Shown one piece after another: positions 6,515-52,815 of a stretch of DNA of 64,000 nt; within the stretch, counting starts at the first letter, position 1, and every line of letters begins with the position of its first letter. Below the pieces are notes generated by a model. It made no database searches. It was not told the origin of the DNA and worked only from the letters and a program-made list of their open reading frames with translations. Source of the stretch: Diplolepis rosae (lineage: Eukaryota > Arthropoda > Insecta > Hymenoptera > Diplolepididae); NCBI GenBank assembly GCA_030998225.1, contig JAPYXD010000391.1:248001-312000 (forward strand), given 5' to 3'. Position numbers and translations under genes: made by a program.

Positions 6515-6789
6515 AAAACAAAAGAAAAACAGAGATAAAGCCTGAAGATTACACCAATATCCTTGTTTCGTTGTGGAAAATTATCTCTAAAAAAGTATAT
6601 TACATATTATGCCTTGGAGCCTTGATTAAGTCAAATTTGATCTTTACTACTACTCAATGTTCTAACAAGCTGGGGTCACTTAATGAGGTTGGCGTTTTGA
6701 CTGGAATAAATAACATCACAGATTTTCCAGAACAAATTTTGCACAGTACACAACCACTTCGTGAAAACTCGGAATTTTCTATCCTAATT
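6515..6789 (+). CDS. SPH-A1 exon 1: chymotrypsin-fold pseudoprotease, N-terminal half
   Basis: First recognisable exon of a serine-protease homologue; the others lie at 6907-7011, 13020-13106 and 13176-13359. The exon follows an acceptor (gtgcag) in phase 1 and ends before GTAAGT in phase 0. Its 91 codons contain ILVSLWK (S1 'VSL' strand), then C-LGALI-S and FTTTQC, matching the S1 core CGGSLI-S...LTAAHC. The catalytic His position is Gln. The end, FSILI, joined to LDREI, matches the DIALL-LD strand with the catalytic Asp replaced by Ser. An enzyme is therefore unlikely; a binding, decoy or regulatory role is an inference. An upstream in-frame ATG (6403) is not conserved in SPH-A2, so the true start and signal peptide are probably on an upstream exon I could not find. 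Confidence 0.75.
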
Positions 6790-6906
6790 GTAAGTATTCC
6801 AATATAACACTGAAGAATTTGATATTAAATTAATTTTATCTTATTATTTTTTATAATAAGACATTTGTTAGATACTTATAATATAAGAGATTTCATTTTC
6901 CTTTAG

Positions 6907-7011
6907 TTGGATAGAGAGATTAATCTACCATCGTCTATAAGAATAGGTGTCGTGACTACGGGCATCAATGATATAGATATAAAAGAAGTATTCTTAGGTT
7001 GGAACAAAAAG
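6907..7011 (+). CDS. SPH-A1 exon 2: 'GW' segment of S1 domain
   Basis: 35 codons in phase 0/0 between CTTTAG and GTAAAA. It starts LDREINLP, like the strand after the catalytic Asp in S1 proteases (L-RPI-L), and ends FLGWNKK, matching the conserved (V)-GWG. SPH-A2 has the same length with about eight changes. The 6.0-kb intron that follows is filled by a mariner, a 757-bp Tc1/mariner derivative and degenerate repeats. Confidence 0.75.
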
Positions 7012-8000
7012 GTAAAAATATACGACTGCATAAAAAAAGATAAGCTTGTCATAACAGCGAATATCATGTTGTTTTCTCTGAGTTAGTTCTTGTTACAGTA
7101 TATTGTATATTATTGTACATACCGGTGTCATTGTAAAATTTAGTATTATTATATTTATTTTTACTGAAATCAACAGTAACAAGGATATAACGTCAGTTTT
7201 TTAGAAATTACTATTTTGAATATTAAACTATGGAGTTACTAATAATATTGGTGAAAATGGTGAAATAATTGTATTTATGCCTGAAAACAGAAGCAAGTGT
7301 TATTTTCTGGAATAGCAAAATCGTGATCGACACATCAAACGAATTTTATTGAAGTAAACACAATAAATGTTTCATTAAATACCATTAATTACCAAAGTCT
7401 TTTAGGGATAGTATAACCATATTTATAACTTTTTCTATCAAAAATAGAGAATAATTGCACCTCCATAATAAAAAAATGCAGTCATTCATAAATTTCACCA
7501 TTGTTCTCATTCAAATTTGTGAGCTACATAGAGATAGTATTTCATAAACAAAGTTACATACTTATATACACGTATATGTATTAACCTATCAATATAAATA
7601 GTAAACATACCCAATACACGCACAAATACTAATTTAACACAACTCAACCTAACCCCACGCATTCATAAACGTATCGCAGTGATATGACACTTGGAATGTA
7701 GCAACTTCGTTATATACTGACCTGTGAAAACTTTTACGATTTGTGAGAAGAAGCTCGGTAGTACCTCTGCTAACAAAACTCGTAAGTTAGAAAGCCGCCA
7801 CATTCAAATGTAAAAAATTATATTATTATATGTATGTTATACTTTTTGTATTTATTTTTTCTTTGAATCCTCCTTATTACCAAATTTAAAAAATAGATAA
7901 ACAAAAGGCACGCAATGAAAACCAAATTGCAATCCAATGCATTAATTGCACAGAACCTTTAAAGACGTTTTTATCATTGCCTCCAGGTCAATAATTAGAT
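7012..8000. other. AT-rich intron 2 sequence of SPH-A1
   Basis: 7012-7110 is clearly similar to 40785-40890 after exon 2 of SPH-A2, as expected for duplicated introns. From about 7130 to 8000 I see no ORF, RNA or repeat that I can name. Confidence 0.6.
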
Positions 8001-8002
8001 TC

Positions 8003-8625
8003 ACACGGAGAAAAATGGATATTCGAAGAGAATAGATGATTAAAGCGGGAATATATAATTACTGAAACAGAAAAAAGAGTTTTAATTGAATTCTTGTTAT
8101 TTAGGCATACCCAAGTGCGAAGTTAGATACGGCCCAACACTGGCCCAGCTTCGCCAAAACTTTGCCGAAGATCGGCTGCCAATATTGTGCCGTTGTTAGA
8201 ATGATAACTCCGGTACGCACTTGGCGGCCAATTCTGGCCCAAACACTGGCCTTCAGCACTTGTTTTCGGCACAGCAACGGTCCAATGCTGTGCCGAACTC
8301 TAGTTTTCTCACTTCCAGATTGGTTTGCCGTGGTAAAAGTGACACACGGCCCAGTAATGTGCCGTCCATGAGTCCAACTCTGGCTCTTCTACTTTCTGAA
8401 CTGGATGCCATAGTAAAAATGACAATCGGCTTGGTATAGGGTCCATACTGGGCCAAGTTTCGGCTGAAGGTCGGTAAATTTAAAGAGTCGAAAAGGCCGC
8501 CATCGTCGGCCCAGCACTTGACCGATGCAAACAGTGACACTGGCCCAATAACAATAGCCGACTCTTGGCTGCCGAGATTGGGCCAATATTGTGCCGTATT
8601 ATCACCAAACAAAAGAAGTGGTTGT
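8003..8625. repeat. Degenerate GGCCCA/TGGGCC tandem repeat
   Basis: From about 8110 to 8600 the motif (c)GGCCCA-(a/g)-(c/t)-(a/c)-TTGGCC and its inverse recur many times, with TGCCGA variants, in an otherwise AT-rich region. Long ORFs on both strands are by-products of the repeat. A CACACGGAGAAAAATGG terminus at 8001-8017 may be the left end of the host element. A similar motif class recurs at 42330-43010. Confidence 0.55.
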
Positions 8626-9114
8626 TACAACAAAATTATTTCGTAAACAGAAAAAAAACGTTTAAATCTCCTGTCTTAAAAGAAGGCTGACGTGGGATTC
8701 GAACTATATCGCAGAGGCAGGTGTACAAACTCCAATACTTATTGTCTTTCGGTATTTTATGTCCTACCAATAAACCAAAATACTCTAGAAATGTAAGTTG
8801 TTCAGAAGCTGAAAATCCAAATTTGTCTTTTTTTAGCTTTTTCCTACTGAGGAATTTAGGTCACAATACTCTTCGTTGGTCCACAACAATAACATTACAA
8901 GTTGAGAACAACATTAACTTAAGTCAAAGAACTTTTTAAAGCAAATAAATTGCGTAAATTACGCATCTAAAACATAAAGCTTTAAAATATAGATATAGTA
9001 AAAAGGACACGTACCAATTGTATCGCTTTGAAACGTTGTTGAAAATTTGGACGCAGCCTTCTGACACCATTAATTTTCTTATCTTCTGCACTTTCATACT
9101 TGTAACATATCACT

Positions 9115-10378
9115 CAATAAGTTTCCGGTCTAAGAAAAACACAGTTTTTTCGAGAACTTCGTCTTTATTCTTCAACATAGTTCCCTTCAAGCGTAGTACA
9201 TTCATTCCAACGCTTCCCTAACTTTTTAATGCCTTTCTTGTAGAAAGATTCATCTTTGCTCTCAAAATTGACCTCAGTTTCGGCAATCACTTGTTCATTG
9301 GAGCCAAGTCTCTTTGCCTGGAGCATTTTTTTCAGGTCAGCAAAGAGCAAGTAGTCGCTGGGGGCCAGATCTGGATAATATTGTGGGTTAGGAAGCAATT
9401 AGAAGCTTAATTCATTTAATTTGACCATGGTTCTGAAGGACTTATGGCACGGTACATTGTCTTGATGGAACAGCACTTTTTTCTTCTGCATGTGAGACCG
9501 CTTTTTCTTGATTTCTCGGCTCAATCGATCCAGTAATGCCATGTAATAGTCGCTGTTAATGGTTTTACCTTTCTCAAGATAGTCGATAAACAAAATACTA
9601 TGCGCATTCCAAAATACGGATGCCATAACCTTGCCATCCCATTGTTGAGTTTTTGGTTACTTTGGATGGCTTTTACCTTCTGCTGCCCACTCAGCTGACG
9701 ATATTTTTGTTTCAGGTGTATAGGGGTGGATCCATGCTTCATCCATTGTCACATACTGATGCAGAAAATTCTTTTTAACTCGCTTGAACAGCTTTAAACA
9801 GCGCTCTGAATCCTCGACCCGTTGTTGTCTTTGGCCGGATGTTAGCAAGCGCGGCACCCACTTCGAAAACAACTTGCGCATCTCTAAAGATTCGTGTAAA
9901 ATTATAAAAACACTACCTTCTGATATCTTTAAGCTGTCAACTGTCTCATGCAATTTTAATTTACGATCGCCCAAAACTATTTTGTGGACTTTCGTTATGT
10001 TTTTCGAAATAACTGCTGATTTTGGGCGACCAGAGCACTCAGCGTCATCGGTGTTTGTACGACCACGTTTAAATTTGGCATACCAGTAGATGATTGATGA
10101 TTTCCCTGGTGCAGAGTCCCCATAAAGCTTATCAAGTCACTGCATTCCTTTAACAGTATTTTTGCCCATTAAAGAGCAATTTGATTAACACTTGAAACTC
10201 TTTTTTATCCATTGTTTTGAAAATGACAAAAGTTGCTTCACAAAAACCTTTATAACTTCTGAACTAAACGTCATATTGTCATGAATTTTTTACACTTAAC
10301 GTTTGAAGGTTAGTACTATCCAGAAATCATATGGATTTGACAGCAATGTTGCCATCTATATGTCAGGCCGGAATAATA
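9115..10378 (-). mobile_element. mariner element, near full length but broken
   Basis: The ends are inverted and similar (AATAAGTTTCCGGTCT left; GGCCGGAATAATAAT right). On the - strand a mariner transposase of about 349 codons can be followed from the ATG at 10212 to the stop at 9165, across an early in-frame stop and frameshifts near 9660 and 9620 and a stop near 9400. Catalytic-region residues are visible: TMDEAWIH (first D), HQDNVPCH (second D) and LAPSDYLLF (third D), the D,D34D mariner pattern. It lies in intron 2 of SPH-A1. Confidence 0.85.
9165..10212 (-). pseudogene. mariner transposase (D,D34D), frameshifted
   Basis: Would have cut and pasted its element at TA sites. Order on the - strand: start MDKKEFQVLIKLL, HTH region with GRTNTDD and GRPKS, then TMDEAWIH, HQDNVPCH and YYPDLAPSDYLLF, ending KRWNECTTLEGNYVEE. 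The length equals a complete mariner transposase, so decay is by point and small indel mutation, not deletion. At least one premature stop and two frame changes make it inactive. Confidence 0.85.
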
Positions 10379-10489
10379 ATAAATTAATAAATAAATAAAT
10401 TAAATATTGCTGCAGTAACAGCCAAATCTGTTCGCTTCCGGGAGGATATTTTGCGTTTAGAACATGAAAAACTTTTGATGTGTACCCCC

Positions 10490-11060
10490 ATGGCCGGTAT
10501 TCGGCAGGAGCAGGCGCCCAGCGTCAGGTGCCCCTGACTGGGCGTGGCTCAGGTTAATTCTAGGTCCACTAGGCGTACGTACAGACTGTACACGATCGTT
10601 ACCGAACGACACCGATCATTACCGAATGTTACCAAATGTAACAAAATGTTGTCCGAACGTTACCGAAAGGCATCGAAACGTAACTAAACATAACCGAACG
10701 TTTCCAAGTGTTACCGGACGTTATTAAATGATCCTGTATGATACCAAGTGATACAAGGCATTTTTTTACAACAGAAAAATGTTAAAATGACGGCGAACCA
10801 GCTCACCCCTTGACCAAGGGCGATTGCAATTGGCCATGGTGCGAGAAGGCGGTGTATGGCGTCAGGCGCTCCTGATCACACCCCGCCCCGGTTCTCTCCA
10901 GTGGCATCATGGCCCAGCCGTCTCATTGGACAAATTTACCGACCGACCGACAAGGTCCGGACGAGATTTTAGGTTGAACGCACCCACCGAGGGGAACCAT
11001 GCTACGACACCAATTGCAAACCGACGTTTCATTAACGCAACGATCTTTATGTTCTTGTTC
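10490..11060. repeat. Degenerate GTTACCGAA minisatellite and GC-rich patch
   Basis: 10590-10770 is built of imperfect ~10-11-bp units of the form (c)gttaccgaa(c/t), roughly 15 in a row (ttaccgaacg, ttaccgaatg, ttaccaaatg, ttaccggacg). The flanks at 10490-10560 and 10820-11050 are GC-rich (aggcgcccagcgtcag, ggcgtcaggcgctcctg) and look related to each other. No coding sequence is recognised; 11130-11215 is rich in CACA. Confidence 0.5.
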
Positions 11061-11361
11061 TACAGAAATAATTTAATGATGACAAGAACCGGTCCAAAAC
11101 CCGACCAGCTAAGCCTGTGTCCACGCACCCGCTTCGACATACACACACATAGATACACATTAAATTCGCACACGGACACCAGCACACAATCTTTTTTATT
11201 CATACACACACATATATAATATAATAGTAGACATGTTGTCAAATATGTCACATTATGACAGAAGAGAGTATTGGGCATTTTGGAAACCATTACTAACCCT
11301 GCAGTAAATTCCCTTGTAGGAACCCATATAGGAACCTACCTTGGATTCTATATCGAAACTT

Positions 11362-11526
11362 AACACATCGTTCAATAAGTCCCGGGACTAACTAAGAAAA
11401 CAAAATTTGTTTTGCAAAATTCATTTTTATTCATCAATATAATCACCTTCAAGTCTCTTGAAATCATCGAAAAACTCAAATTTCGTATCTGGTGCTGTTA
11501 GCCGGGTTTCTTCGTTCCACGCCACA
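11362..11526 (-). mobile_element. Terminal fragment of a mariner
   Basis: Begins with an AATAAGTCCCGGGACT mariner-type terminus and continues into sequence like the 3' end of a mariner on the - strand. It stops at the 757-bp element that starts at 11529. A related terminus opens the mini-mariner at 16289. No transposase is left. Confidence 0.5.
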
Positions 11527-11528
11527 TA

Positions 11529-12285
11529 AAGGGTTTCCCAATAGGGGTGATATGATTTTGAATGTCCCTATCGGGCTCATTTGAACTGAAATTTTTGACG
11601 TCTGCTGTCAGTTGTCATCAGTAAGGTTTGCCATTTAATTATGAGTAGTTTCACGCTTCCACAACGTTTGGAAATTGTCCAATTATTTTATCAAAATTCG
11701 AGAAGTTTTGTCGGTGTTCAAAGAGCATATCGTGCAAAATATGGTCGTCATTCTGCTCCATCCGCGCTCTCAATTCGTCGAATAATCGATAAGTTGGAGA
11801 GTGAATTTACTCTATTGGATACTAAGCCTAAAAATCGTATGCGTACCGCACGTTCTACACAGAATATAGCCGCCGTACAGGCCAGTATCGAGGAAAACCG
11901 TGAATTGTCCGTGCCACGCCGATCTCAGGAATTGGGCCTGTCCAGGATGACTACCTGGCGTATTTTGCGATTGGATCTTGGCCTGCATCCCTATAAGATG
12001 ATTCTGGCCCAAGAACTGAAGCCTAATGACCATCGTTTGCGTCGGGAGTTCGCGGATTGGGCTCTGGAATCAATTGAAAATGATCCCAATTTTCATCAAA
12101 AAATCATCTTTTCTGATGAGGCGCATTTTTGGCTCAAGTCTCGGGGGACATTTGGCCGATATATTGTTTAAATCATAAATGGCATAGAATATCCAATATA
12201 ATAAAAAAGATTTCGATCAATTCCGAATGAATATTCAGTGTTTTTTTTCAATTTCAAAACATATCACCCTTATTGGGAAACCCTT
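11529..12285 (+). mobile_element. 757-bp Tc1/mariner derivative, copy 1
   Basis: The inverted ends AAGGGTTTCCCAATA and TATTGGGAAACCCTT are flanked by the TA target duplication (11527-11528 and 12286-12287). It contains one intact ORF (11641-12171). A second copy of exactly the same length lies inverted at 15333-16089, and a 3' fragment lies at 19459-19548. Near-identity of the two copies indicates recent mobility. Confidence 0.92.
11641..12171 (+). CDS. Truncated Tc1/mariner transposase (DNA-binding half)
   Basis: 176 codons, intact. It starts MSSFTLPQRLEIVQLF with a helix-turn-helix (RSFVGVQRAYR...), a second HTH (VPRRSQELGLSRMTTWRIL) and continues to the first catalytic Asp (IIFSDEAHFWL), after which it stops. 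The second and third acidic residues are missing, so it cannot catalyse transposition but could still bind element ends. Identical ORF structure in copy 2 with one residue different (K/T in YRAxYGRH). Such a product could act as a repressor (inference). Confidence 0.85.
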   Translation: MSSFTLPQRLEIVQLFYQNSRSFVGVQRAYRAKYGRHSAPSALSIRRIIDKLESEFTLLDTKPKNRMRTARSTQNIAAVQASIEENRELSVPRRSQELGLSRMTTWRILRLDLGLHPYKMILAQELKPNDHRLRREFADWALESIENDPNFHQKIIFSDEAHFWLKSRGTFGRYIV

Positions 12286-12287
12286 TA

Positions 12288-13019
12288 TATAGTAATCCAG
12301 GCAGATTCCTGTCTTATATTATAATAAAATTCATATCTCAAATCCCTTTAGTCAGTTAAATAGGTTTCTATGTAGATTTACAGTAGGGAACTTCGTGACA
12401 TTTTCTTTTCTTGTTGATTAATCATTCTTACTTTTCTGATTTCCATCTTTCGCAATGTAGCAGATGGAACAATTACGCTTTCTTCCCAAAACAATTTCAA
12501 TTTGTGAGATAAGTAATCCGTATATTACGTGAACAGGCCTACAACATTTTTTTTGTTTTAGTGCCAAACTATTATGTTACTTCAATATTTCTTAAAAAAA
12601 TTGGGACCTGGGCTGCCATCATTTGCCAACAATTATTTTTTCTCCGTGCAGTTAAATATTGTTTCAGTACTGCCTGTCAGTAGTTGATTGATCGGCCCCC
12701 ACTATGGTGTTGCGAAGCTCTTGGCTTGACTTCGTATTTTTTGAACTAAGAATAATAATAACTATTTTAAGCATATTCAGTTGACATTTACATTGGCATT
12801 TTAAGGGAATTTTCGACACTTCCTATCATAATTTTCCATGACCTAGTTCTGATTCCAATACTAATTTAATCTCTGTTGTTACTGGATTAACTACGATGTG
12901 ACAGTAGTACTAAAAAGTATTGATAGACTAGTACAACGCAATCGGTGAATTATAACCATTCGTAGAAATATTAATCTTCTAAATTTTAAAAATTTTATAT
13001 GCTTGATATGTTTGAATAG
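12288..13019. other. Intron 2 of SPH-A1, 3' part
   Basis: 12292-12420 and 12895-13019 align with 47219-47400 and 47385-47496 of SPH-A2 (shared aacttcgtgacattttct and gcttgatatgttt blocks), so this is duplicated intron. 12540-12890, which contains a TTTTTTCTCCGTGCAG terminus near 12640, has no match in SPH-A2 that I see and may be an insertion. No gene. Confidence 0.55.
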
Positions 13020-13106
13020 GACGGTCTGAAGAAAATATCATTCAGTTTCGAAAATAACGAAAGATTTTTGACACTTGTCAGAGCTACATGCTATAAGGAT
13101 GAGGAC
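13020..13106 (+). CDS. SPH-A1 exon 3: variable segment between GW and GDSGG regions
   Basis: 29 codons between ..GAATAG and GTGAGT, phase 0/0: starts DGLKKISFSFE and ends CYKDED. In the S1 fold this is the part between GWG (about residue 142) and GDSGGP (about 193), including the autolysis loop and pocket wall. SPH-A2 and SPH-C have exons of exactly 29 codons here; SPH-B has 31. Compared with SPH-A2, about 18 of 29 residues differ although the flanking introns are well conserved. Confidence 0.7.
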
Positions 13107-13175
13107 GTGAGTATTATTTTATCTTTTTTTGTTACTTGTAAGGTATTCAATAACTAACAGCTCTTAATATTTTAG

Positions 13176-13359
13176 TTTCCCCTAAGCAGTCTTGCAATAA
13201 AGGGTAGGAACATTATAGGATTTACTTATTTGGATGAAGAAAATGATGTCAATGGAAATAGTATTGTCGGAGGAATAAGAACTATTCATAAAAGGAAAGT
13301 TGTGTTTTCTAAAATTTTCTACGCAGATTTCACGGCAGTTAATTCATTGCTTCGCAAAG
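13176..13359 (+). CDS. SPH-A1 exon 4: GDSGG-equivalent region and C-terminal helix
   Basis: 61 codons plus one base, phase 0 in and phase 1 out (..CGC AAA G, then GTAAAT). FPLSSLAIKGRNIIGF aligns with the S1 GDSGGPLV--G-LVGI strand; the catalytic Ser position is Pro. VVFSKIFYADFTAVNSLL corresponds to the VFTRV--Y--WI helix. A short final exon should follow but was not found. A 1.07-kb fold-back element begins about ten bases into the next intron. Confidence 0.75.
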
Positions 13360-13368
13360 GTAAATATA

Positions 13369-14442
13369 TGGGTCATTCCATATTAGACTAACAGTCGATG
13401 TCACAGATTTGAACAAGATAATTTTTTTCGGTCTTTATCAACAATAAATAGACACGTATTTTTGTGGTTGGTCAAAAAAAATTTTTTTACAAGTATACGA
13501 TTTTTCGAATTTTCTGAGAAATCATATTTTCGATATAGCAAGCGCACTTTCAAGCCTGTTTATCCTGAAAACAATTGTTCGCACAAAAAATTTTCCAAAT
13601 TACGAAAATTAGGGTTTTGACTCTTCTTTACAGAGATTGTTGCGAAAAAATTGTTTAAACATTTTTTAACATACAAAAGTAAAGAAATAAACGCAAAATC
13701 GTTTTTTTCCTAATTTGGCACCTTTCGAAATTTTTTTTTTCGTGGATTTAGATTCTTTGAAGTCTGTTATAAAATATGACAATCGAATCAAAATGGCTGG
13801 ATCATTGATTCGGAAGTTATGGAGTTTTGAAGAGCCTGGCGCGGTCTCGCGCGCAATCCGGGCGCCTCCACGCGCGGCGAGCGTTTACCTTTACTTTTAG
13901 CACTAATAACTTACGCCCGGTAAAATGCTCGCCGCGTTTGAAAGCGCCCGGATTGCGCGCAAGACTATGCGAGGCTCTTCAAAATTACATAACCTCCGAA
14001 TCCATGATCCAGCCATTTTTATTCAATCGTCATATTTTATAACAGACTTCAAATAATCTAAATCCACTAAAAAAAAAATTTCGAAAGGTTCCAAATTAGG
14101 AAAAAAACGATTTTGCGTTTATTTCTTTACTTTTGTATGTTAAAAAATGTTTAAACAAATTTTTCGCAACAATCTCTGTAAAGAAGAGTCAAAACCCTAA
14201 TTTTCGTAATTTGGAAAATTTTTTGTGCGAACAATTTTTTTCAAGATAAACAGGCTTGAAAGTGCGCTTGTTATATCGAAAATATCATTTCTCAGAAAAT
14301 TCGAAAAATCGTATACTTGTAAAAAAAATTTTTTTGGCCAAACAAAAAAATACGTGTCTATTTATTGTTGATAAAGAACCGAAAAAAAATTATCTTGTTC
14401 AAATCTGTGACATCGACTGTCAATCTAATATGGAATGACCCA
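13369..14442. mobile_element. Fold-back element (1.07-kb palindrome with GC-rich centre)
   Basis: ATGGGTCATTCCATATTAGA at the left recurs inverted at the right end (CTAATATGGAATGACCCAT). Arms of about 530 bp match closely throughout, meeting at about 13905 with a GC-rich core (gcgcgcaatccgggcgc / gcgcccggattgcgcgc). SPH-A2 lacks it at the same intron position (47819-47840), giving an empty site; ATAT-like bases flank both ends. The ORFs inside are palindrome by-products. Confidence 0.88.
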
Positions 14443-14446
14443 TATA

Positions 14447-15212
14447 TAAGTATAACGCTTTGAGAATGAACTGGATGACATTTACACTGTTGGTCGTTGG
14501 TAGCTAAAAAAAAGCAATCCACAGACGAGATAAATTTACACAAAAAAACGTGAAATTTAATTTACAATTTAATTTTCACATTCATTCTTCATTTTGAACA
14601 TTTTTTTCAATTCATCTATTCCGATAAGGTTTTTCCTATAAAAACTTTTCGTAGGGAGTTATTGACAGATTGTTATATCAGCTATTGATAAAACGTTCCA
14701 CTCATCTGTAAAAAGATGCCTGATATGAGCGAATCAATTTCCAGCCCACAATTTCTATTCGATTTTCCTTCTAACTCCCACAACTCCCATAAAAATGATT
14801 CATTAGATATAATTTTTTGGAAAATTTATTTTTACATCAATGCCAACTTATTGTGAAAATCTTGACCAGATCCGAGCGGGTAAGTACATACATGCTTATC
14901 CTGCTAAGCCCTTTGTTTCAATAATAAAAGATTGTTAATGAAATGCACAATATCTATAGTGTATTACCATCAGTGACAAATGCATACTCAATTTTGATGA
15001 TGAAACAAAGCTCATCTACTAAACAGATGGCTGAATAATGCATTTGTTTATTGAATTTGTTTACATAATACAAAACTTTTGTCTAATAACGCATTATTTT
15101 CGACAGTTCTGACATTGAAAGGATATAGCACTTGATTTTGCTAAAAACAACCGGAATATTCCTCTTAAAAAATGGCCCAATTAGAGATTTGTTTCTTATT
15201 TTTATTATGGTC
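14447..15212. other. Intergenic/intron sequence duplicated after SPH-A2
   Basis: 14447-14490, 14540-14640 and 14790-14870 align in order with 47835-47870, 47950-48030 and 48550-48630 downstream of SPH-A2 exon 4. No exon with a phase-1 acceptor continuing SPH-A1 could be recognised. Confidence 0.5.
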
Positions 15213-15214
15213 AG

Positions 15215-15332
15215 CATTCGTGGGACTGGTTTGATGCAGCTCTCCACCCCTTTCTATCCTAAGCAGGTCTCTTTATATCGCAGTGTCTGCTACAACCTAC
15301 GTCATCTATAATTTGTTCCACGTACTCTAATA
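15215..15332. repeat. Widespread insect repeat, left part (continues at 16092-16190)
   Basis: The string cgtgggactggtttgatgca and the following ctctccacccc...cctaagcaggtctc is a repeat type I know from many insect genomes, probably non-LTR derived. It is interrupted by the 757-bp element at 15333-16089 and resumes with ttggcgtccttctactgc. A small related piece is near 48635. Confidence 0.5.
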
Positions 15333-16089
15333 AAGGGTTTCCCAATAAGGGTGATATGTTTTGAAATTGAAAAAAAACACTGAATATTCATTCGGAATTG
15401 ATCGAAATCTTTTTTATTATATTGGATATTCTATGCCATTTATGATTTAAACAATATATCGGCCAAATGTCCCCCGAGACTTGAGCCAAAAATGCGCCTC
15501 ATCAGAAAAGATGATTTTTTGATGAAAATTGGGATCATTTTCAATTGATTCCAGAGCCCAATCCGCGAACTCCCGACGCAAACGATGGTCATTAGGCTTC
15601 AGTTCTTGGGCCAGAATCATCTTATAGGGATGCAGGCCAAGATCCAATCGCAAAATACGCCAGGTAGTCATCCTGGACAGGCCCAATTCCTGAGATCGGC
15701 GTGGCACGGACAATTCACGGTTTTCCTCGATACTGGCCTGTACGGCGGCTATATTCTGTGTAGAACGTGCGGTACGCATACGATTTTTAGGCTTAGTATC
15801 CAATAGAGTAAATTCACTCTCCAACTTATCGATTATTCGACGAATTGAGAGCGCGGATGGAGCAGAATGACGACCATATGTTGCACGATATGCTCTTTGA
15901 ACACCGACAAAACTTCTCGAATTTTGATAAAATAATTGGACAATTTCCAAACGTTGTGGAAGCGTGAAACTACTCATGATTAAATGGCAAACCTTACTGA
16001 TGACAACTGACAGCAGACGTCAAAAATTTCAGTTCAAATGAGCCCGATAGGGACATTCAAAATCATATCACCCCTATTGGGAAACCCTT
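15333..16089 (-). mobile_element. 757-bp Tc1/mariner derivative, copy 2
   Basis: Same ends (AAGGGTTTCCCAATA / TATTGGGAAACCCTT), same length and the same ORF as copy 1 at 11529-12285, in opposite orientation. TA duplications at 15331-15332 and 16090-16091. It is inserted into the insect repeat at 15215-16190. Confidence 0.92.
15447..15977 (-). CDS. Truncated Tc1/mariner transposase, copy 2
   Basis: 176 codons, intact, differing from the copy-1 product by one residue (YRATYGRH instead of YRAKYGRH). It ends after the first catalytic Asp motif FSDEAHFWL and lacks the other two acidic residues. Preservation of two identical truncated ORFs suggests both come from one mobilised internally deleted master copy. 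Confidence 0.85.
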   Translation of the reverse strand: MSSFTLPQRLEIVQLFYQNSRSFVGVQRAYRATYGRHSAPSALSIRRIIDKLESEFTLLDTKPKNRMRTARSTQNIAAVQASIEENRELSVPRRSQELGLSRMTTWRILRLDLGLHPYKMILAQELKPNDHRLRREFADWALESIENDPNFHQKIIFSDEAHFWLKSRGTFGRYIV

Positions 16090-16288
16090 TATTTGTCTCC
16101 CCATATTTTGGCGTCCTTCTACTGCACCTTCCAAAATTATTGCAACTATTCTCTCATGTCTTTTTGCCTGCCTGCTTGTTATGGTACAAGAAAGGGATCC
16201 AAGTTGTAAAAAATAATTTATGTAAAGAACCCATGAAATATGCGACTTTACATTACAATGGTAAAAGTTCCTTGCAATTATATTTGAC

Positions 16289-22285: not shown

Positions 22286-22608
22286 GTAAAGAAATGTCTC
22301 CAGTTGAAGAAATGTCTCGAGGTAAAGACGAGGGTAAGGATCTTGTGGTCAGCGATAACAAATATCTCAATACCATTGTATCCTTCTGGAAAATAATCCC
22401 TGGACAAGGCAAACGAGTACTTTTATGTCTTGGGGCATTAAGTGGATCAAATTTGATTTTTATCATTAAAACATGCTATGATTCCCTGAGAGAAACAAAT
22501 AACATCGTAATTTGTACTGGAAGCAGTTATTTTGATGACTTCGATATGAATTTTATTATTGAAGACTCAAAAGAGTTTTGTCAAGATACACATTTCATTG
22601 TTCTAATT
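22286..22608 (+). CDS. SPH-B exon 1: chymotrypsin-fold pseudoprotease, N-terminal half
   Basis: First recognisable exon of the second paralogue (others: 22790-22891, 24442-24534, 29818-29980). The acceptor ctccag gives the same phase 1 entry as in the other three genes; alternatively an ATG at 22276 could start translation. The first 18 codons are three six-residue repeats (MSPGKE, MSPVEE, MSRGKD). The body has TIVSFWK, then LLCLGALSGSNLIFIIKTC, aligned with CGGSLI...LTAAHC; His is replaced by Thr. It ends FIVLI, where the catalytic Asp strand should be. Intact frame and GTAAGT donor. Confidence 0.72.
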
Positions 22609-22789: not shown

Positions 22790-22891
22790 TTGAAAGTAAA
22801 TACGGAGCGACCATCTTCTTTAGCAATAGAACACGTGGTATTAAATCAGGATGTGAAGTATCGTGGAGTATTGGTAGGATGGAGCGAAAGG
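22790..22891 (+). CDS. SPH-B exon 2: 'GW' segment
   Basis: 34 codons in phase 0/0 after a TTTTCTCCAG acceptor. LKVNTERPSS fits the S1 L-RP strand; the end GVLVGWSER is the closest of the four copies to S1 VVGWGR. Confidence 0.75.
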
Positions 22892-24441: not shown

Positions 24442-24534
24442 AAAAATCATCCAATGATAGAGCCGTTTACTTTTGTGATTAGAGGCTATACAATGATGAT
24501 AAGTGAGGACAATATCAAAATAAATGTAAAGGAT
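24442..24534 (+). CDS. SPH-B exon 3: variable segment
   Basis: 31 codons in phase 0/0 between TTCCAATAG and GTAAGT: starts KNHPMIEPFTFVIRG and ends NIKINVKD. Almost no residue is shared with the 29-codon exons of the other paralogues. The 5.3-kb intron after it contains a nested TIR element with a Tc1 transposon and two mariner fragments. Confidence 0.65.
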
Positions 24535-29817: not shown

Positions 29818-29980
29818 TTTCCCTCAGGCAGTCTTGTAGTAAGGAATGGACAAATTATAGCAGTTTCATATGTGAATATTAATCAGAAGATTCGGTTCAA
29901 CAAAATCCTCGAAAAAGAATCTAAGGGAGTTCAGCAGATCTTATCGGATCCGTCGATAAATAAAAGTGACCCCCACATTG
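29818..29980 (+). CDS. SPH-B exon 4: GDSGG-equivalent region
   Basis: 54 codons plus one base, phase 0 in and phase 1 out (CAC ATT G, then GTAATT), as in SPH-A1 and SPH-A2. FPSGSLVVRNGQIIAVSY is strikingly like S1 GDSGGPLVVNG-L-GIVS, with Asp194 replaced by Phe and Ser195 by Pro. The rest (IRFNKILEKESKGVQQIL) matches the terminal helix. The next exon was not found. Confidence 0.75.
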
Positions 29981-36060: not shown

Positions 36061-36507
36061 TCTTACTTTATAATCATTTTTCGGAATCGGTGATAAATAC
36101 TGAATAAAAATACGCAAAATTTAATCTATTGCATGCAGTTTTTACCAAGAAATCGCGATTTATGTTTTTAGAAACATTGATTTTAGGTTATTCAAAATTG
36201 ACCTTTTATACTTATTTTTTCGAAAACAACATGTCGGAGTGGAAAAAACCTAATAAATAAAAGGTGTATTTTGACAAGTTCAGTACAGTTTCATGATTTA
36301 GAGAAAAATTTTATAATTTTCAGTTAATCTTTAGTCGATTTTACGTTACATTTCTTTAAAGCATTGTATATTTATTATAATTCTCCATGACATTTGTGAG
36401 TTAAAAATTTTGAATCTTTCAGAACATTTCTAACAGTTTTCATTTTAAACATATATATTTCAAAATTCTCATACTACAATAAATCAAATATTGCTTTAAT
36501 TACAAGT

Positions 36508-39213: not shown

Positions 39214-39488
39214 AAAACAAAAGAAAAACAGCGATAGTGCCTAAAGATTACACTAATATTCTTGTTTCGTTATGGAAAATGATCACTGAAAAAGAATATA
39301 ATATATTATGCCTTGGAGCCTTAATTACCTCATATGTGGTCTTTACTACTAATCAATGTTCTAAAAAGCTGGAGTCACTTAGTGAGGTTGGCATTTTGAC
39401 TGGAATAAATAATATCACAGATTGTCCAGAAAGAATTCTGAACAGTAAACAACGACTTCGTCAATTATCGAAATTTTCTATTCTAATT
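39214..39488 (+). CDS. SPH-A2 exon 1: chymotrypsin-fold pseudoprotease, N-terminal half
   Basis: Duplicate of SPH-A1 (other exons: 40680-40784, 47497-47583, 47653-47818). Same length (275 bp), same phase 1 acceptor (gcgcag) and same GTAAGT donor. Contains ILVSLWK, ILCLGALITS and FTTNQC (His replaced by Gln), and FSILI (Asp replaced by Ser). By my count about 25 of 91 residues differ from SPH-A1, with about 33 amino-acid-changing and 7 silent base changes, while the next intron differs by roughly 10%. The frame is open and the splice sites are intact. Upstream sequence 38500-39213 matches 5180-6514, minus the fold-back. Confidence 0.75.
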
Positions 39489-39505
39489 GTAAGTATTCCT
39501 ATATA

Positions 39506-40573
39506 CAGGCCTCACAGACCGGTCCCTATATCCCCTATTGTCCTTTATATTCAGTTGAGGTCCCTAAAGTCCCCTATTTTCACGATTTGGTCCCTAAAGT
39601 ACTTTATTTTCAGCCATTAGTGTGCATTTTTTAAAATTTGTATAAAATCGATGTATACAAGCGTTGCATTCTTCTAATGACCTCACTATTTTGAAACTGT
39701 CATTAAATAATATTTAAATTACGAGCGCTTTTATTCAAGAAATTATGATTGGTCGATGTACGCACTGCCTCAGCCAATAACATCAGCGACGAACGACATG
39801 TTAATGTTAGGTGTAATAGGTAAAACCATCGCAATAATGATATAAATATCATTCGGAATTTAAAAGACTTAAGAATTTAAAAAGAAGTCTATAGATGTAA
39901 CCGATACAGTAGTATTGTATTAGTAATTTATTTAAACTTAAAATTAAGTCAAGAAAACTCATATTGTGTTATTAGAAGTATACTTATTAATGAAAAAACT
40001 GAAATTTAAAGAAATAACATTCATTCCTTAACCAAAGTATAAAACATATAAAAAAAAAGGAAATTTTGTTGAGAGTTAATTGAAATTCAATTCAATTAGT
40101 CTTACATACTCTATAACTCTGAATCAGTCAAAATCAGTGAAAATTAGACTCTGATTCAGATTTAGAGAGTACAAGTCGTGGTATGTAGGTAATTTCCTAT
40201 TTAATACTCACGTCCGAAAATTTGTGAAGTACAGTTGTGTACAAAAATATGAATATATTTATTGAATTTGAAAATCTTTCTGTGGAAAAAAGACGCCTTC
40301 GATTGCGCTGGGATTCGAGCCCAAGTCTTTTGATTACCGGTCGACTGCTCTTTCAAACTCAACTAATTAATTTGAATATATTTATTACTTATTAAAATAA
40401 AAAGTATCACGTCTTTATTTACCTTTTATCAAGAGTTTATTCTTTTCAATAACTTTCTTTCATACCTAATTTTTGTTAAAAATGTACCCTATAAGCGTAA
40501 AAAAGGTCCCTATGGGCAAGAAAAAAGGTCCCTATACACCTTATTTTTTATCCCAAAGGGACTGTGAGGCCTG
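39506..40573. mobile_element. 1.07-kb TIR element in SPH-A2 intron 1
   Basis: The ends CAGGCCTCACAG and CTGTGAGGCCTG are perfect inverted repeats, flanked by TATATA on both sides (39500-39505 and 40574-40579). SPH-A1 intron 1 has the uninterrupted site (attccaatataacactg), so the insertion is directly shown. Subterminal AGGTCCCTA-type repeats occur at both ends (39540-39600; 40500-40545). It contains a SINE fragment (40265-40355). No transposase. Confidence 0.88.
40265..40355 (-). repeat. tRNA-derived SINE fragment
   Basis: On the - strand it matches the SINE at 58700-58825: tail (gaaaatctttctgtgg...aaagacg) and the B-box region (gggctcgaatccc). Flanked by ctaattaatttgaa, which also follows the copy at 2836-3115, so these two share more than the SINE. 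Confidence 0.7.
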
Positions 40574-40679
40574 TATATAGCACTGAAGAATTTGATCTTG
40601 AATTACTTTTATCTTATTATTTTTTATAATAAGACATTTGTTAGATACTTATAACATGAAAAATTTTATTTTTGTTTAG

Positions 40680-47496: not shown

Positions 47497-47583
47497 ACTG
47501 GGCGTAAGAATAAACCATTTGTTTACAAAAATGAAAAAAAGTTTTTGTCGCTTAACGGAACTCAAATGTATAGTGATGAGGAC
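47497..47583 (+). CDS. SPH-A2 exon 3: variable segment
   Basis: 29 codons in phase 0/0 between TTTTAATAG and GTGAGT: TGRKNKPFVYKNEKKFLSLN to SDED. Same length as in SPH-A1 and SPH-C. Only about 11 of 29 residues match SPH-A1, and the charge is shifted to basic (six Lys versus three), while both flanking introns remain alignable almost base by base. Confidence 0.72.
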
Positions 47584-47652
47584 GTGAGTATTATTTTGTC
47601 TTCTTGGCTTATTTGGGAGAAAATCAATAACTAAAAGCTTTTAATATTTTAG

Positions 47653-47818
47653 TATCCCTTAGGTAGTATTGCAATAAAGGGTAAAAACATTATAGGATTT
47701 ACTCATTTTAATAAAAAATCTTTTGTGAGAGGATTAAGACCTAATTGTGAAAGGAAAATCCTGTTTACTAAAATTGTCTACGCAGATTTCATGAAAATTA
47801 ATTTTCTGCTTGACGATG
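47653..47818 (+). CDS. SPH-A2 exon 4: GDSGG-equivalent region
   Basis: 55 codons plus one base, phase 0 in and phase 1 out (GAC GAT G, then GTAAAT). YPLGSIAIKGKNIIGFTHF aligns with SPH-A1; Ser195 is again Pro. ILFTKIVYADFMKINFLL is the terminal helix. Six codons shorter than SPH-A1 in the loop between them. Final exon not found. Confidence 0.75.
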
Positions 47819-49155
47819 GTAAATATGTATACTATAATGCTTGGAGAATGAACTGGATGAGCATATGGCTGACTTGCCCATTTAGTTTTTTTTTTTTCAA
47901 ATGAGAACACTGTATGAAAAATCTACGAAATTTTGAAATCATTTTGCAAAGTAAACGTAAAATTCAATTTCCACACTCATTCTTTGATTTAGAACATATT
48001 TTTTAATTCAACTCATTAGTAAAAAAAAATGCCTGATGTGGGCAATTCAATTTTCAGCTTACAATTTTTATTCGATTTGCAATTTTTTCTATTGATAAAA
48101 TTCTATGGAATTATGCATGTTTTCAGGGTTCAACCTTTCAGAAAAAAATTTTGAAATATTTTTTATGAAAAAATAGTATCAAAAAATTTTTTTCCGTAAA
48201 CTAACAATAGAGGTTAAAATTTAAATATTTCTAAACTTTCTCGTCACTAATTTGGAAAAGTACGTTTTGTCACACGGACTCAGCATGGATTGTGCAATCA
48301 ATCATTTTTGTTGTTTAGCGCCAAGACCCCAAAATTGTCTTTCTCGCGTGGGTATCAAAGAAAAATATTTATTTTATTTGTGTGATTGATGTCCTCGCTT
48401 TGATCGGGCATCAAACTTCACACTTAGAAACAAAGCTGCTTTTTCCTAATTTCACAATAGTATTTCCTAGTTGCACAATATACTATTTAGTTTGTTGAAA
48501 TCAGTCCAATCGTTTTCAAGAAATACTAATTTTTTGATTTTTCTTCTGACTCTCATAGAAATTTTCCATTAGATATAACCTCTTGGAAAATTAATGCTTA
48601 TATCAATACCAACTTATTGTAAAAATCTTGACCCTCTACTGCACCTTCCCAAATTGTTCCTACACAGTTTCATAGACTATTATAGAAAAATAAAAATTGC
48701 AAATCAAATAGAAATTTTGGGCTGAAAATTGATTTATCCACAGGCACCTTTTTTGCCCTACTATGCGACGCGTCGATGTAATTTCACGTTGCCGTTGTGA
48801 AATTCCATGCACTGCTATTGCTTACTCGCGTTCCGGTGTAATTTTGCGACGACAGACTATGTAATATCTCGTAGACATTTTTTACAGTGTGCTTTATAAA
48901 ATTATTGACCTCGCAGAAAATTAAACTATGTACTTTGTTGAAAGTGAATTTATTCAAACGAATAAGGTTTTAAACCTTTCACTTCCAGCAGGGTAGAATG
49001 AAACAGAATAAAACACCCTGTCAGCAACAGAACAAATAAACCATTTTTACATTATAACCACACTGAGAAAAATGAATAGTTTTTTTTTTCTTTTTTTTCG
49101 AGGAATAAGAATAATATTAACATTGTATGATAACACATATGCCATACTAGGGTGT
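47819..49155. other. AT-rich sequence after SPH-A2, no gene recognised
   Basis: Parts align with 14450-14870 after SPH-A1. 49060-49080 has a CACACTGAGAAAAATGAAT terminus like that at 22987. No continuing SPH exon was recognised. Confidence 0.45.
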
Positions 49156-49157
49156 TT

Positions 49158-49735
49158 GATATTGACGTAATAAAATGAACAGTAATTTATTTTTTTGGCG
49201 AAAATCGGCTTCATTTCTCAATGCACTCTCCTTTTAGCTCGATATAATGAGTCCAGCGATGTTTAAACTTTTCTATGCCTTCAAATAATACGATTTGTTT
49301 AACCTTCCAAAATAGCCTTCTGTTCCTCATTTAACTGCTTCGTTAGACTCAAAACGCCTACCACACAGCCATCTCTTGAGGTTTGGGAACAGATAATAGT
49401 CGCTGGGGGGCCAGGTCTAGAGGATACAGTGGATGCGGAAGCGATCTGAAACCCAATTCATGCTTTGTTTTCTGTGCAATGTTCAATGTGTAAGATAGTG
49501 CATTGTCATCTTGAAGAAGGATTTTTTTTTTCTTTTAATGTGGCCGTTTCTTTCTGATTTCGTCAACCAATCGATCCAATAATGCAGCATAATATGATCC
49601 AGTAATCGTCCTTCCTTTCTCAAGGTAGTCGTTGAAGATTGCTCCATGTGTATCCCAAAAAACACTAGCTATAACTTTCCCAGCCGATTGTTGCGTTTTC
49701 GTACGCTTTGGTGCACTTTCACCAGGGTTACGTAT
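49158..49735 (-). pseudogene. mariner transposase fragment
   Basis: On the - strand from 49720: KRTKTQQSAGKVIASVFWDT, FNDYLEKGRTITGSYYAALL and DRLVDEIRKKRPH, then a decayed part with the PGPPATI remnant of PDLAPSDYYLF at about 49400 (third D) and KHRWT..IELKGE near the end. The N-terminal part before the first D is missing; the break is near 49735. Confidence 0.75.
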
Positions 49736-49871
49736 ATTTTAATTAATTTAATTAATTTTAACACATTTAGAAACCGCATTGACATACCATTCTTCAAACT
49801 AAACAGTCATTTTATACAAAACATTTAATAAAATATAAACAAATACACGCGTTATTTACAATATTCAATTT

Positions 49872-50371
49872 GTTTGATCCGCCCAGGAAACAAAAAACCA
49901 TTCACTTGCGTTATATTTGAATGGGCTTTGAGGTGTTCTGAATTGCGTATCTGTCACTGGAATTTCAGCATTAACAGATTGAAAACCAATATTTCCGATA
50001 GAAAATAATGTATTTAAAGTGAACAATCGTTTACAATACAATTCGTATTCTGTTTTTATTGTATTTCTCTTATTCAGAGTGACCTTTTAAGACTTCCATT
50101 TCATTTGGAATTTCAACCGATTCATGCGAACATCAATGAATCGTACATTGCCATTAGAAATTATTTGAGGTTAATCAGTCTTATTCAACCCTATTCACTT
50201 AACGATTTAACCAATGTCGAATGGCAGATTTAAAACATTGCGCACAAATGGCAGATTCCAAGTGTCACCATCCGATTGAATTTTTATTTCCTGAATATGC
50301 AAATGACAGATACACAATTCAAAGAGACGCGCGTTCTATCGGTTTTTTTTTCCTGGGCGGTCTTTTTGCCT
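49872..50371. mobile_element. TIR element (~500 bp)
   Basis: CCGCCCAGGAAACAAAAAACC at the left recurs inverted as ...TTTTTTTTTCCTGGGCGG at 50340-50371; tgaattgcgtatctgtc (49938) and gacagatacacaattca (50308) are a second mirrored block. Short ORFs on + (50221-50442, 50276-50521) straddle its right end and are not supported. Confidence 0.6.
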
Positions 50372-50379
50372 GCCGTTCC

Positions 50380-51127
50380 CCTACTGCTCTTGATATTAAA
50401 ATGTTTATATGGACTGGACTACAGCGTTGCCATCCCTACTGATTTACTAGGCGATCTCCTGATTATTTTGATTACATGCAATCTATTCATTTTTCTTAGT
50501 GTGTGCAGGTTTATAAGATGACTTTTCTCCCTTTTCGACCTAATTTGTATGTATTTTACTAACCAAAAGAAGAACCTAGTAAGTTATTATTTGTCATGGA
50601 GGCTATTTCTTGTTACTCATACTCGCAAAAATAACCTCTATGGCAAATGTTACTTACTGAATTCTTCTTTTGGGTGATGTCTGTTTATCCGTTTGCTTGT
50701 TAAAAAAAAAGAGATATAATCTGTGAAAAATAATTTACGTAAAGAGCCCATTAAATATGCAACATTACATTAAAATGGTAAAAATACCTTGCAATTATTT
50801 ACATGAAAATTGTAAGAGTCTCATCTTTTGTAATTTCACCATTAAATAGAATGAAAGCTGTGAACCACTTAGAGAACAGTTTGTGTCAATTTGACAAAAA
50901 TATTTTCGATACGCGGCTAAACAAGACATTTTTTCAAATTAAACAAAGTTTTTTTAATTCAAGAAAATTTACAAGTTAAAACTAAAAGTTCCTACAAAAT
51001 GGACATTTACCATGTCATGTAAAATTTAGTATTTTATAAGTCCTTTACTTAAATTATTTTTTACATTGTACAATTAACCAATTTTACCTCTTTCTAAAAT
51101 ATATTTATTCATTGTCATTATAAACAG
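50380..51127. other. Upstream region of SPH-C, duplicated behind SPH-A1
   Basis: 50715-51040 aligns with 16205-16780 (minus the mini-mariner there), showing that the duplication reaches the region just before SPH-C exon 1. The left copy is cut by a LINE fragment where the corresponding exon would lie. Confidence 0.6.
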
Positions 51128-51441
51128 ATAGCGCTGGTGATGACGGCCTCACCAAAAACGATTACTTCAATTTCGTTGTTTCTTTATGGAAGCACGAGTC
51201 TCCATTTGAAAAAAATTTACAAAGTTTCGAAATTTTATGCCTTGGGGCTATAATTTACTCAAAATGGATCCTTATCAACCATGAATGTTTGCAAAAAGTG
51301 TCCGAGGTCGGTCTGGATAAAGTTGGCGTCTTAACTTATAGCATGTTCCTCAAAAAGCTTCTACCAAAAACAGAGGTCCTCGATCATTCCCGCCGGATTC
51401 GTAAGAATGATTGTAAAGAGACAAAATATTATATTCTATAC
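51128..51441 (+). CDS. SPH-C exon 1: chymotrypsin-fold pseudoprotease, N-terminal half
   Basis: Fourth and most compact paralogue (51128-51441, 51566-51664, 52416-52502, 52570-52815), the only one with an evident stop codon and almost free of TEs. The TAAACAG acceptor enters in phase 1 as in the others. Sequence features: NFVVSLWK, then ILCLGAIIYSKWILINHEC, aligned with CGGSLIS-WVLTAAHC; the His position is Glu. The end, YYILY joined to LNSHF, covers the catalytic Asp strand, with Tyr in place of Asp. About 248 codons in total, the size of one S1 domain. The start and signal peptide are not seen. Confidence 0.75.
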
Positions 51442-51565
51442 GTAAGCAGTTTTACACAGCATTAAGAAGTTCAAACTTGAACTACTTGAATCTCAATATA
51501 TTTTATATAATAACGTTTAAAGTTTGTTAAATACTTGATGTATAAAAAATTGATTATCTTTTTAG

Positions 51566-51664
51566 TTGAACAGTCACTTCGACGTATCATCGCGTATAAA
51601 AGTAGATTGGATGAAGTGGGAGGATAAAGAAAATTACGGAATTTTGGTAGGATGGGATAAAGAG
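51566..51664 (+). CDS. SPH-C exon 2: 'GW' segment
   Basis: 33 codons in phase 0/0 between TTTTTAG and GTAAAA. Ends YGILVGWDKE, matching S1 V-GWG. The acceptor and intron length resemble those in SPH-A1 and SPH-B. Confidence 0.75.
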
Positions 51665-52415
51665 GTAAAAATACACGATTCTTAAAATACTATCCCGGTA
51701 CAACCTGTCGGACTATCAGAACTTGATCAATGCCCTCCCACTATTTCCCATTAAGCTTTTGGCTTAACTTCTCACTATTAAAACTAGAAATAATGGCATT
51801 TTTGCTATGCAGCAAAACTATTATCCTAATTTATTGCGAGAAATGCATTTGATTCATAAACTCTTATTTGTGCATCGAAAATAATGTTTAATCTGTGATA
51901 GACAATAAAAATGGTCAGTGACGTTAAAAATTTACGGGATCAGTTGAAGAATTTCTTTCTAATATTAATCAATTATCTGGTTCTAAATCTTCCAGTAAAA
52001 AAGTGCGCATTAAATGTCATTGAAATGTTAACATCTGAAAAGAAACGAAAACCAGTATGAAACTTCCAAATGCATTTTCATGCCTGGGTAGATGTTGTAC
52101 TGGCTCGAAACTACTTCCCAGTACTAGATCTTCGTAATTGTTTTAATCATAATTGAATCAACCATGACAAATGGGTAATAGTTATTACTTCCTTAACATT
52201 TCGAATGGATTTTTACTCTAATGGTAATTTCTGCTCAAAAAAATGTCAGAACACTGATTTAATTTTTTATCATGATGGCATCATCTAATCAATACAAAAG
52301 TGTCAGTAGTGGCTAGTAATACTTGTCCAGTACAATATTACTCCTGAATTTCAACATATCATAGAAATTTCAAGCTTCTAGACTATTAAAATTATATTAT
52401 AATCTGTTTCAATAG

Positions 52416-52502
52416 AAAGGTCCAGTAAAACAAAGCTTTCATATGTTGTGTAAACATAAACTATGTATTCCTTTAAGAGATCTAAATCGTCCTGTATCAT
52501 GC
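52416..52502 (+). CDS. SPH-C exon 3: variable segment
   Basis: 29 codons in phase 0/0 between TTTCAATAG and GTAAGT: KGPVKQSFHMLCKHKLCIPL to PVSC. It has three Cys, including one at the end where S1 proteases have the Cys191 region. Otherwise unlike exon 3 of the paralogues. Confidence 0.7.
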
Positions 52503-52569
52503 GTAAGTATTATTATCTGCCTATACTATTTACGAGAAAATCAAAAACTAACAGCTGTTAATATTTTAG

Positions 52570-52815
52570 TACCCCCTGGGCAGTCTCATAATAATAGACC
52601 AGAAATTAAGAGCCAGTGTTTATTTTGAAAAACAAACGGGGGCTACAAAGGATAATGGGTGTGCTAATAAAGAAAAAAAAATAAGTGATTACTGTATACC
52701 GACGTATAAATTAATTGATAGAGACTCCTCAGCATTAAATACGATGTTTTTGGAAGAAAATGAACCTGAAATAACATGTGAAATGGGTTCGTCCTCAAAA
52801 AAACCTCGCTTGTAG
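52570..52815 (+). CDS. SPH-C exon 4: GDSGG-equivalent region, C-terminus and stop
   Basis: 82 codons including TAG. YPLGSLIII matches the GDSGGPLVI region with Ser195 replaced by Pro. IPTYKLIDRDSSALNTM corresponds to the C-terminal helix, followed by a 26-residue polar tail ending SSSKKPRL. Unlike the other three genes it has no phase 1 donor after the helix. An AATAAA lies 100 bases after the stop. Confidence 0.75.
   Translation, partial: YPLGSLIIIDQKLRASVYFEKQTGATKDNGCANKEKKISDYCIPTYKLIDRDSSALNTMFLEENEPEITCEMGSSSKKPRL

Follow-up and report, generated by a model that had tools for sequence, protein, structure and literature searches.

Four sets of four exons, here called A, B, C and D, lie in tandem within a 64,000-nucleotide stretch of the Diplolepis rosae genome (the window: C195:248001-312000, where C195 is contig JAPYXD010000391.1 of the 757.7 Mb assembly GCA_030998225.1; 35.8% G+C). 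Each set encodes a domain that resembles the S1 (trypsin-like) serine proteases in its N-terminal half and has lost the catalytic residues. An earlier note on this DNA had described the sets as four genes. We find instead that they are most likely domains 2–5 of a single gene with five domains, as judged from a shared leader exon, the recurring order of the domains and the phase-1 joins between them, with a signal peptide and a first domain, E, encoded upstream of the window. An architecture of one gene in which several domains are all catalytically dead appears highly probable to us.

Exon anatomy and linkage of the domains

The exons of the window, with two further features that bear on where the gene ends, are as follows (a slash marks the splice site).

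6515..6789, + strand: domain A exon 1, VSL strand to D102 strand, Q at the H57 position; phase-1 acceptor TGCAG/AA, phase-0 donor
6907..7011, + strand: domain A exon 2, ends GWNKK; phase 0
13020..13106, + strand: domain A exon 3, 29 codons; phase 0; same exon in the next gene
13176..13359, + strand: domain A exon 4; ends at the phase-1 donor AAAG/GTAAAT, not at the stop at 13389-13391
13364..14447, unstranded: MITE-like (miniature inverted-repeat transposable element) insertion a few bases past the A exon-4 donor; terminal inverted repeats 13364-13428 and 14383-14447, 97%
22286..22608, + strand: domain B exon 1, T at the H57 position; phase-1 acceptor CTCCAG/GT
22790..22891, + strand: domain B exon 2, ends GWSER; phase 0
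24442..24534, + strand: domain B exon 3, 31 codons; phase 0; second copy exists
29818..29980, + strand: domain B exon 4; ends at the phase-1 donor CATTG/GTAATT
39214..39488, + strand: domain C exon 1, A-type, Q at the H57 position; phase-1 acceptor GCGCAG/AA
40680..40784, + strand: domain C exon 2, ends GWNKM; phase 0
47497..47583, + strand: domain C exon 3, 29 codons; phase 0; copy in the previous gene
47653..47818, + strand: domain C exon 4; ends at the phase-1 donor GATG/GTAAAT
51128..51441, + strand: domain D exon 1, E at the H57 position; phase-1 acceptor AAACAG/AT
51566..51664, + strand: domain D exon 2, ends GWDKE; phase 0
52416..52502, + strand: domain D exon 3, 29 codons; phase 0; copy in the previous gene
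52570..52815, + strand: domain D exon 4, the last exon of the gene; C terminus PEITCEMGSSSKKPRL plus stop, identical in the previous gene
52915..52920, + strand: AATAAA, a possible poly(A) signal ~100 bases past the D stop; the motif is common in the AT-rich DNA here

The single strand, the shared architecture and the exon 3 of 29 codons (31 in B, a length that a second B copy confirms) agree with what had been read before: all four sets have GT/AG sites, open frames and internal introns of phase 0-0-0. The exon coordinates given earlier also hold, whereas the boundary motifs had to be moved, with exon 2 running three residues past the GW at which it was said to end and exon 4 beginning with (F/Y)-P. 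Domain E has an exon 3 of 32 codons. A search of the window with exon 1 of A returned C (E = 4.9e-44), B (5.8e-13) and D (3.2e-8), and profiles of exons 1, 2 and 4 recovered sets A–D, the next best matches in the window having E values of 0.02, 0.24 and 0.04. A fifth exon-1-like stretch at 36211-36318 (0.005, 0.02 and 0.0085) was set aside as a chance match, with no LCLGA in the three surrounding forward frames. A and C lie inside a segmental duplication, with blocks of 74-90% identity at a spacing of 32.7-34.5 kb.

All four exon 1s open at a phase-1 acceptor, so that a first exon or a preceding domain must be spliced on. At the other end, A, B and C each carry a phase-1 donor within exon 4, shortly ahead of the apparent stop (last exon bases 13359, 29980 and 47818), and the codons formed at the A-B, B-C and C-D joins (GGT, GAA and GAT) are all sense. 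The joined exons of the window give 903 codons with a single stop at the end, and D alone of the four sets has a real gene end. Across 11 domain copies, exon edges carry AG in 42/42 cases and GT in 40/40.

The start of the gene, comprising the leader exon and domain E, lies 20-30 kb upstream of the window. The leader exon, MSPTAIGLFLILIVSLPKVS, has a good phase-1 donor and stands ~590 bases before E in two genes; its signal-like peptide was judged by hydropathy and eye only. A genome-wide search found leader DNA at 15 places (three on C195, at 94.2, 218.0 and 330.0 kb, ten on C138 and one each on C350 and C408), none of them in the window. The 18 exon-1 places on C195 make up three consecutive E-A-B-C-D sets, each beginning with the same leader exon, and three places near the contig start. 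Through C195:148001-412000, and with a last D-type place just beyond it, exon 1s follow in the order C-type (183.8 kb) and D-type (202.3 kb), then E (218.6 kb), A (254.5 kb), B (270.3 kb), C (287.2 kb) and D (299.1 kb) of the gene described here, then E (330.7 kb), A (350.9 kb), B (389.4 kb), C (407.0 kb) and D-type (419.2 kb) of the next. The places at 22.6, 40.8 and 57.2 kb fit B, C and D of a set truncated where the contig begins; the first of these, like E and B of the first complete set, was typed by position only.

The predicted full gene spans C195:217968-300815 (82,848 bases) and has a signal-peptide-like exon and 21 exons in all, read in one frame of 1,140 codons including one terminal stop. 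If spliced as drawn, it would encode a probably secreted protein of 1,139 residues in the order signal peptide-E-A-B-C-D, with six N-glycosylation-like sites and 24 Cys. At the level of the gene model, at least two S1 or serine protease homologue (SPH) domains thus share one translated frame, which is the mark of a polyserase or polypeptidase.

Relatives elsewhere in the genome give independent support for linked domains. At C350:9445724, matched at 99% by the database open reading frame (ORF) P0004, exon-4 sequence runs directly into exon-1 sequence, and further fused exon 4-exon 1 matches without an inner stop lie at C350:9423578 and 9477904 and at C316:2133986 and 2080357. These five places were matched from residue 1-2 to residue 148-150 of P0004; two fused-type matches on C352 start at residue 21-23. 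The database entries P0001-P0039 are not evidence from other species (P0026 and P0033 are frames of this contig, and P0004 is present at 99% in this genome).

Several observations weigh against a single gene and would suit the older reading, in which four separate single-domain genes each have a private upstream first exon and an exon 4 that reads on to its local stop. The exon-4 frames of A, B, C and E copies do reach a stop 3 to 45 codons past the donor, and the tails beyond the donor are alike in three B copies (GNFNLAIFNRFVC twice and GNCNLAIFNRFVC once, with C for F) and in two C copies (GKYVYYNASGMNWMSIWLTCPFSFLFKRQ..., 45 residues, and GKYVYYNAWRMNWMSIWLTCPFSFFFFK, 28 residues, with ~24 in common, two changed, before they diverge), as genes ending there would also show. 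Donor scores at the joins fall from 3.65 in A to 1.62 in C and a low 0.21 in B. In a scan for first exons with a signal-like peptide, 3 candidates turned up ahead of A and 7 rows ahead of C, against 0 and 3 respectively on the reverse-strand control, which also gave 0 ahead of B and of D. Single-domain members may, moreover, exist on another contig: on C138 a lone D-type exon 1 separates the leader at 1989520 from the one after it, and the same holds for the leader at 2006453; behind the leader at 2030451 there are two (2038375 and 2074052). It is possible that such members, within C138:1989520-2074396, show how the five-domain form arose.

The likeness of the B and C tails does not decide between the two readings, because a DNA divergence of 5-9% predicts the same for introns. 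Immediate tail differences appear only in A, in E and in comparisons between types (GKYMGHSILD versus GKYI in A copies, GNF versus GNY in E copies), and the A tail is transposon sequence that is missing from the other A copy, its apparent stop falling within the MITE-like insertion. The scan found no signal-like first exon before B or D and none common to A and C, and the one leader that is known is absent from the window. With the exon 4-exon 1 fusions in relatives and the recurrence of E-A-B-C-D behind one leader per set, four separate genes seem to us very unlikely, and one gene with five domains is the structure that we carry forward.

The introns of the window hold many transposon relics. 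A 766-base inverted repeat (11523-12288 and 15330-16095, 3 mismatches), with arms 3 kb apart, flanks exons 3 and 4 of A; each arm has a mariner-like ORF (one scanned: DUF4817). An insertion at 39505-40575 in the first intron of C, missing in A, has terminal inverted repeats TATACAGGCCTCACAG and CTGTGAGGCCTGTATA, identified by eye. Further along, on the - strand, a non-long-terminal-repeat retrotransposon at 60614-63990 has reverse transcriptase and endonuclease ORFs (Pfam) and CCHC-like knuckles seen by eye, with 52-57% G+C versus 28-44% in the other bins.

S1 identity and loss of the catalytic residues

As had been claimed, these domains escape ordinary domain finding: neither sets A–D nor domain E score above the Pfam gathering cut-off for PF00089. 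In single-sequence Pfam searches, A and C match nothing, B has one unrelated weak match, and D matches Trypsin at 0.13 and DUF1986, which we take to be trypsin-like, at 0.01; domain E alone does not match Trypsin in Pfam. When PDB sequences were searched with a profile built from the four domains, 78 matched at E up to 10, among them trypsin (0.012), factor XI (0.046) and kallikrein, and the best 60 of the 78 are all S1-fold chains by name. In this alignment LCLGAL lies over LCGGSL, and the second Cys corresponds to C58. For a second profile we used 42 exon-1 sequences, consisting of the four in the window and 38 protein-database rows, several of which come from this same genome; its best PDB match is plasma kallikrein (0.0066), and the best 60 of its 83 matches are S1-fold by name. 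Pfam Trypsin (PF00089) is matched by 13 of the 42 exon-1 members at E up to 1, the best at 4.9e-5.

The S1 register proposed earlier is borne out by these profiles, in which membership of the S1 family appears weak but consistent for the N-terminal half. Two points tell against extending it to the whole domain. The profile matches cover the N-terminal half, exons 3 and 4 having been placed by their order and by GSL, a short motif. The length of exon 3 also seems low for an S1 domain. We infer that the C-terminal half takes the same fold.

Within the matched half, the fold residues persist and the catalytic ones do not. C42 and C58, which would bond to each other, are kept in 42/42 exon-1 sequences. 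The residue before C58, which occupies the H57 position, is Q, T, Q and E in A, B, C and D; over the 42 sequences it is Q in 16, T in 10, D in 9, E in 4 and R, K or I in one each, with H in 0/42. No domain of the predicted five-domain gene carries H57, and no accessory domain was recognised in it. The last seven exon-1 residues of A–D include no Asp, GDSGG is found at the exon-4 start in 0/6, and an IVGG-like pattern occurs in 1/42, as IING well inside the exon. A profile search with exon 4 matched two proteins only. The earlier conclusion that no copy could be catalytic therefore stands through the H57 position and the missing GDSGG, as does the loss at D102, while the assignment of S195 to P depends on an ungapped register. 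Being S1-like, lacking the triad and following a signal-like leader, the protein has the features of an SPH.

The genome also has clusters of full-length, single-frame PF00089 matches at C349:12.87-12.91 Mb and C350:17.01-17.04 Mb, which are ordinary trypsin-like genes with no introns in the domain. Eight trypsin-like loci (L002-L009) carry GDSGG in 8/8 and, by a strict pattern, AAHC in 2/8.

Family size and constraint on the copies

Exon-1 copies occupy at least 200 distinct places in the assembly (33 on C138, 18 on C195, 89 on C284, 4 on C316, 45 on C350 and 11 on C352) and lie on these six contigs in arrays up to ~1 Mb long. The count is the union of the rows from A-type, D-type and fused-type searches, in which the best 150 of 275, 220 and 358 candidates yielded 149, 127 and 150 rows; rows within 450 bases were merged, and 5/150 fused-type rows that matched the exon-4 part only were dropped. 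B- and E-type copies are probably under-counted in this total. A tree of the 42 exon-1 rows has branches for the A/C type (16), the B/E type (12), the D type (10) and the fused type (4), of which the first three are starred and the fused one is not, and it carries a long-branch warning. The viral contigs scanned contained no relative, and a bacterial match (L001, Oscillospiraceae) was dropped, having a stop inside the matched stretch.

Constraint on these sequences appears weak but real, and goes with fast replacement. The ratio of nonsynonymous to synonymous change (dN/dS), pooled over five same-type pairs from neighbouring genes (1,084 codons), is 0.70 (0.52-1.00), with 26/1,000 resamples at or above 1; the individual pairs give 1.47 for E, 0.74 for A, 0.41 for B, 0.65 for C and 0.54 for D, each with an interval that includes 1. 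No exon of the 11 copies contains a stop except as the last codon of D (exon 3 of D1 and exons 3-4 of C3 were left out), and the exon-1 rows of the A-type search are without an inner stop in 149/149 cases. Non-coding DNA aligned between A and C has 31 gaps per 2,075 bases, 29 of them not multiples of three, a rate that predicts ~9 frame-breaking gaps over 648 coding bases (a rough figure, since the same aligner supplied the gap counts for the non-coding DNA); the exons all stay in frame. Under neutrality 4.5 stops would be expected in the A/C coding sequence and 0 are seen (P 0.0125). The nucleotide alignment of A and C does contain small gaps within exon 3 (7 of them) and exon 4 (4 of them), which we do not read as frameshifts because the residues can be aligned in frame and the length differences are multiples of three. 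Exon 3 (13020-13106 versus 47497-47583) is the most diverged A/C exon, at ~0.5 per site in both site classes versus ~0.2 in the flanking introns, and we propose local diversification or conversion there.

Other comparisons speak against constraint and would fit dead or dying genes, that is, a pseudogene repeat array whose exons are open by chance. A versus C gives dN 0.221 and dS 0.201, a ratio of 1.10 (0.69-1.78) that alone would fit drift; the E pair exceeds 1, the pooled interval reaches 1.00, and the introns are rich in transposons. Stops occur in some relatives (five at C284:12238064 and one each at C138:2576753 and 1788925), from which part of the family would seem to be decaying. The D-type and fused queries extend past splice sites, and this accounts for some of the rows with stops, but these three loci look broken. 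Set against the uniformly open exon-1 rows, the frames that A and C have kept through the expected gaps and stops, and splice edges intact in every copy scored, a pseudogene array appears very unlikely to us.

Proposed role and relation to known systems

The kept frames and rapid replacement suggest a fast-evolving family of binding proteins rather than enzymes, and a binding role of some kind for the five-domain protein is the interpretation that we favour, with moderate confidence. Dead S1 domains would act as multivalent protein-binding modules, five binding surfaces to a molecule, in which recognition would fall to the old substrate-binding face. Once secreted, the chain could titrate, bridge or shield its targets, which might be proteases, inhibitors or surface ligands, in a mode likened to that of the non-catalytic SPH cofactors and inhibitors of insect melanization and of SMIPP-S against complement. 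Release from the demands of catalysis in a chain that still keeps its frame would account for the fast amino-acid change (dN/dS 0.70).

The same architecture may serve otherwise, as a protease or inhibitor decoy, a structural matrix or cement, or a seminal or venom component, a family of alternatives that we consider rather unlikely. Precedents are found in the available text of two sources, in which the parasitoid venom SPH Vn50 blocks melanization (PMC4553444) and SMIPP-S inhibit complement (PMC4031079), and fast amino-acid change fits conflict; the DNA, however, points to no single tissue or target. A bolder proposal, which we regard as improbable, is that the super-array of ~200 or more dead domains forms a lineage-specific combinatorial recognition system whose diversity is kept by conflict with an enemy or mate. 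Its symmetric phase 1-1 cassettes with inner phase-0 introns would allow splicing to leave out, exchange or string together domains within one gene or between neighbouring ones; if true, combinatorial splicing would draw many multivalent binders from one locus.

Dead proteases as such are common; an all-dead multi-domain protein, multiplied as whole genes to ~200 domains per genome, would show how far the protease fold can become a pure binding scaffold, and the closely related genes of the arrays offer a natural series of surfaces changing after the loss of catalysis. Because their ORFs are no longer than an exon, such genes escape domain databases and gene finders, and similar arrays may be missed elsewhere.

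The statement in the earlier note that no family of this form had been described was too strong, with polyserases, insect polypeptidases and SMIPP-S all in print. According to the available parts of the literature on them, human polyserase-1, -2 and -3 and the insect polypeptidases carry tandem S1 domains in one chain, domains 2 and 3 of polyserase-2 are dead and polyserase-3 is without an activation motif (PMC1435904, PMC11172050). As far as these accounts go, the polyserases and polypeptidases (Tenebrio, Anopheles SP(H)-SPH-clipE-SPH and Nudel) are alike to the Diplolepis gene in having several S1 domains per chain, some of them dead. In the cases described there, peptidase domains number two or three to a chain, and most of the insect proteins add Sushi, LDL or clip modules, whereas the Diplolepis gene has five domains, none with H57, no recognised accessory domain, and is itself arrayed as a whole gene. 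At least one catalytic domain, usual in human polyserases though not defining, is absent from it.

The SMIPP-S of the scabies mite, as described in the available text of PMC4031079, are likewise a multi-copy inactive S1-fold family that acts by binding; they have thirty-three members, and that text does not mention tandem domains in one chain. This likeness is drawn by description, and no SMIPP-S is named among the best 60 of 78 or the best 60 of 83 PDB matches of our two profiles. Insect clip-domain SPHs (PPAF-II, and Vn50 of Cotesia rubecula) are secreted, non-catalytic S1 proteins that act as cofactors or inhibitors, and by the same partial account consist of one S1 domain and a clip domain; Vn50, 43% identical to PPAF-II and with Gly for the active Ser, is far closer to ordinary S1 proteases than the Diplolepis family (PMC4553444). 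We found no report in the open-licence PMC literature of a protein with five domains all dead, or of arrays amplified ~200-fold. Tandem S1 or SPH polypeptides and multi-copy dead S1 families are already known, and their union in five all-dead domains amplified ~200-fold would be what the Diplolepis arrays add to them. By its domain content, and in the way it would work, the gene is a polyserase-like SPH polypeptidase whose domains are all inactive.

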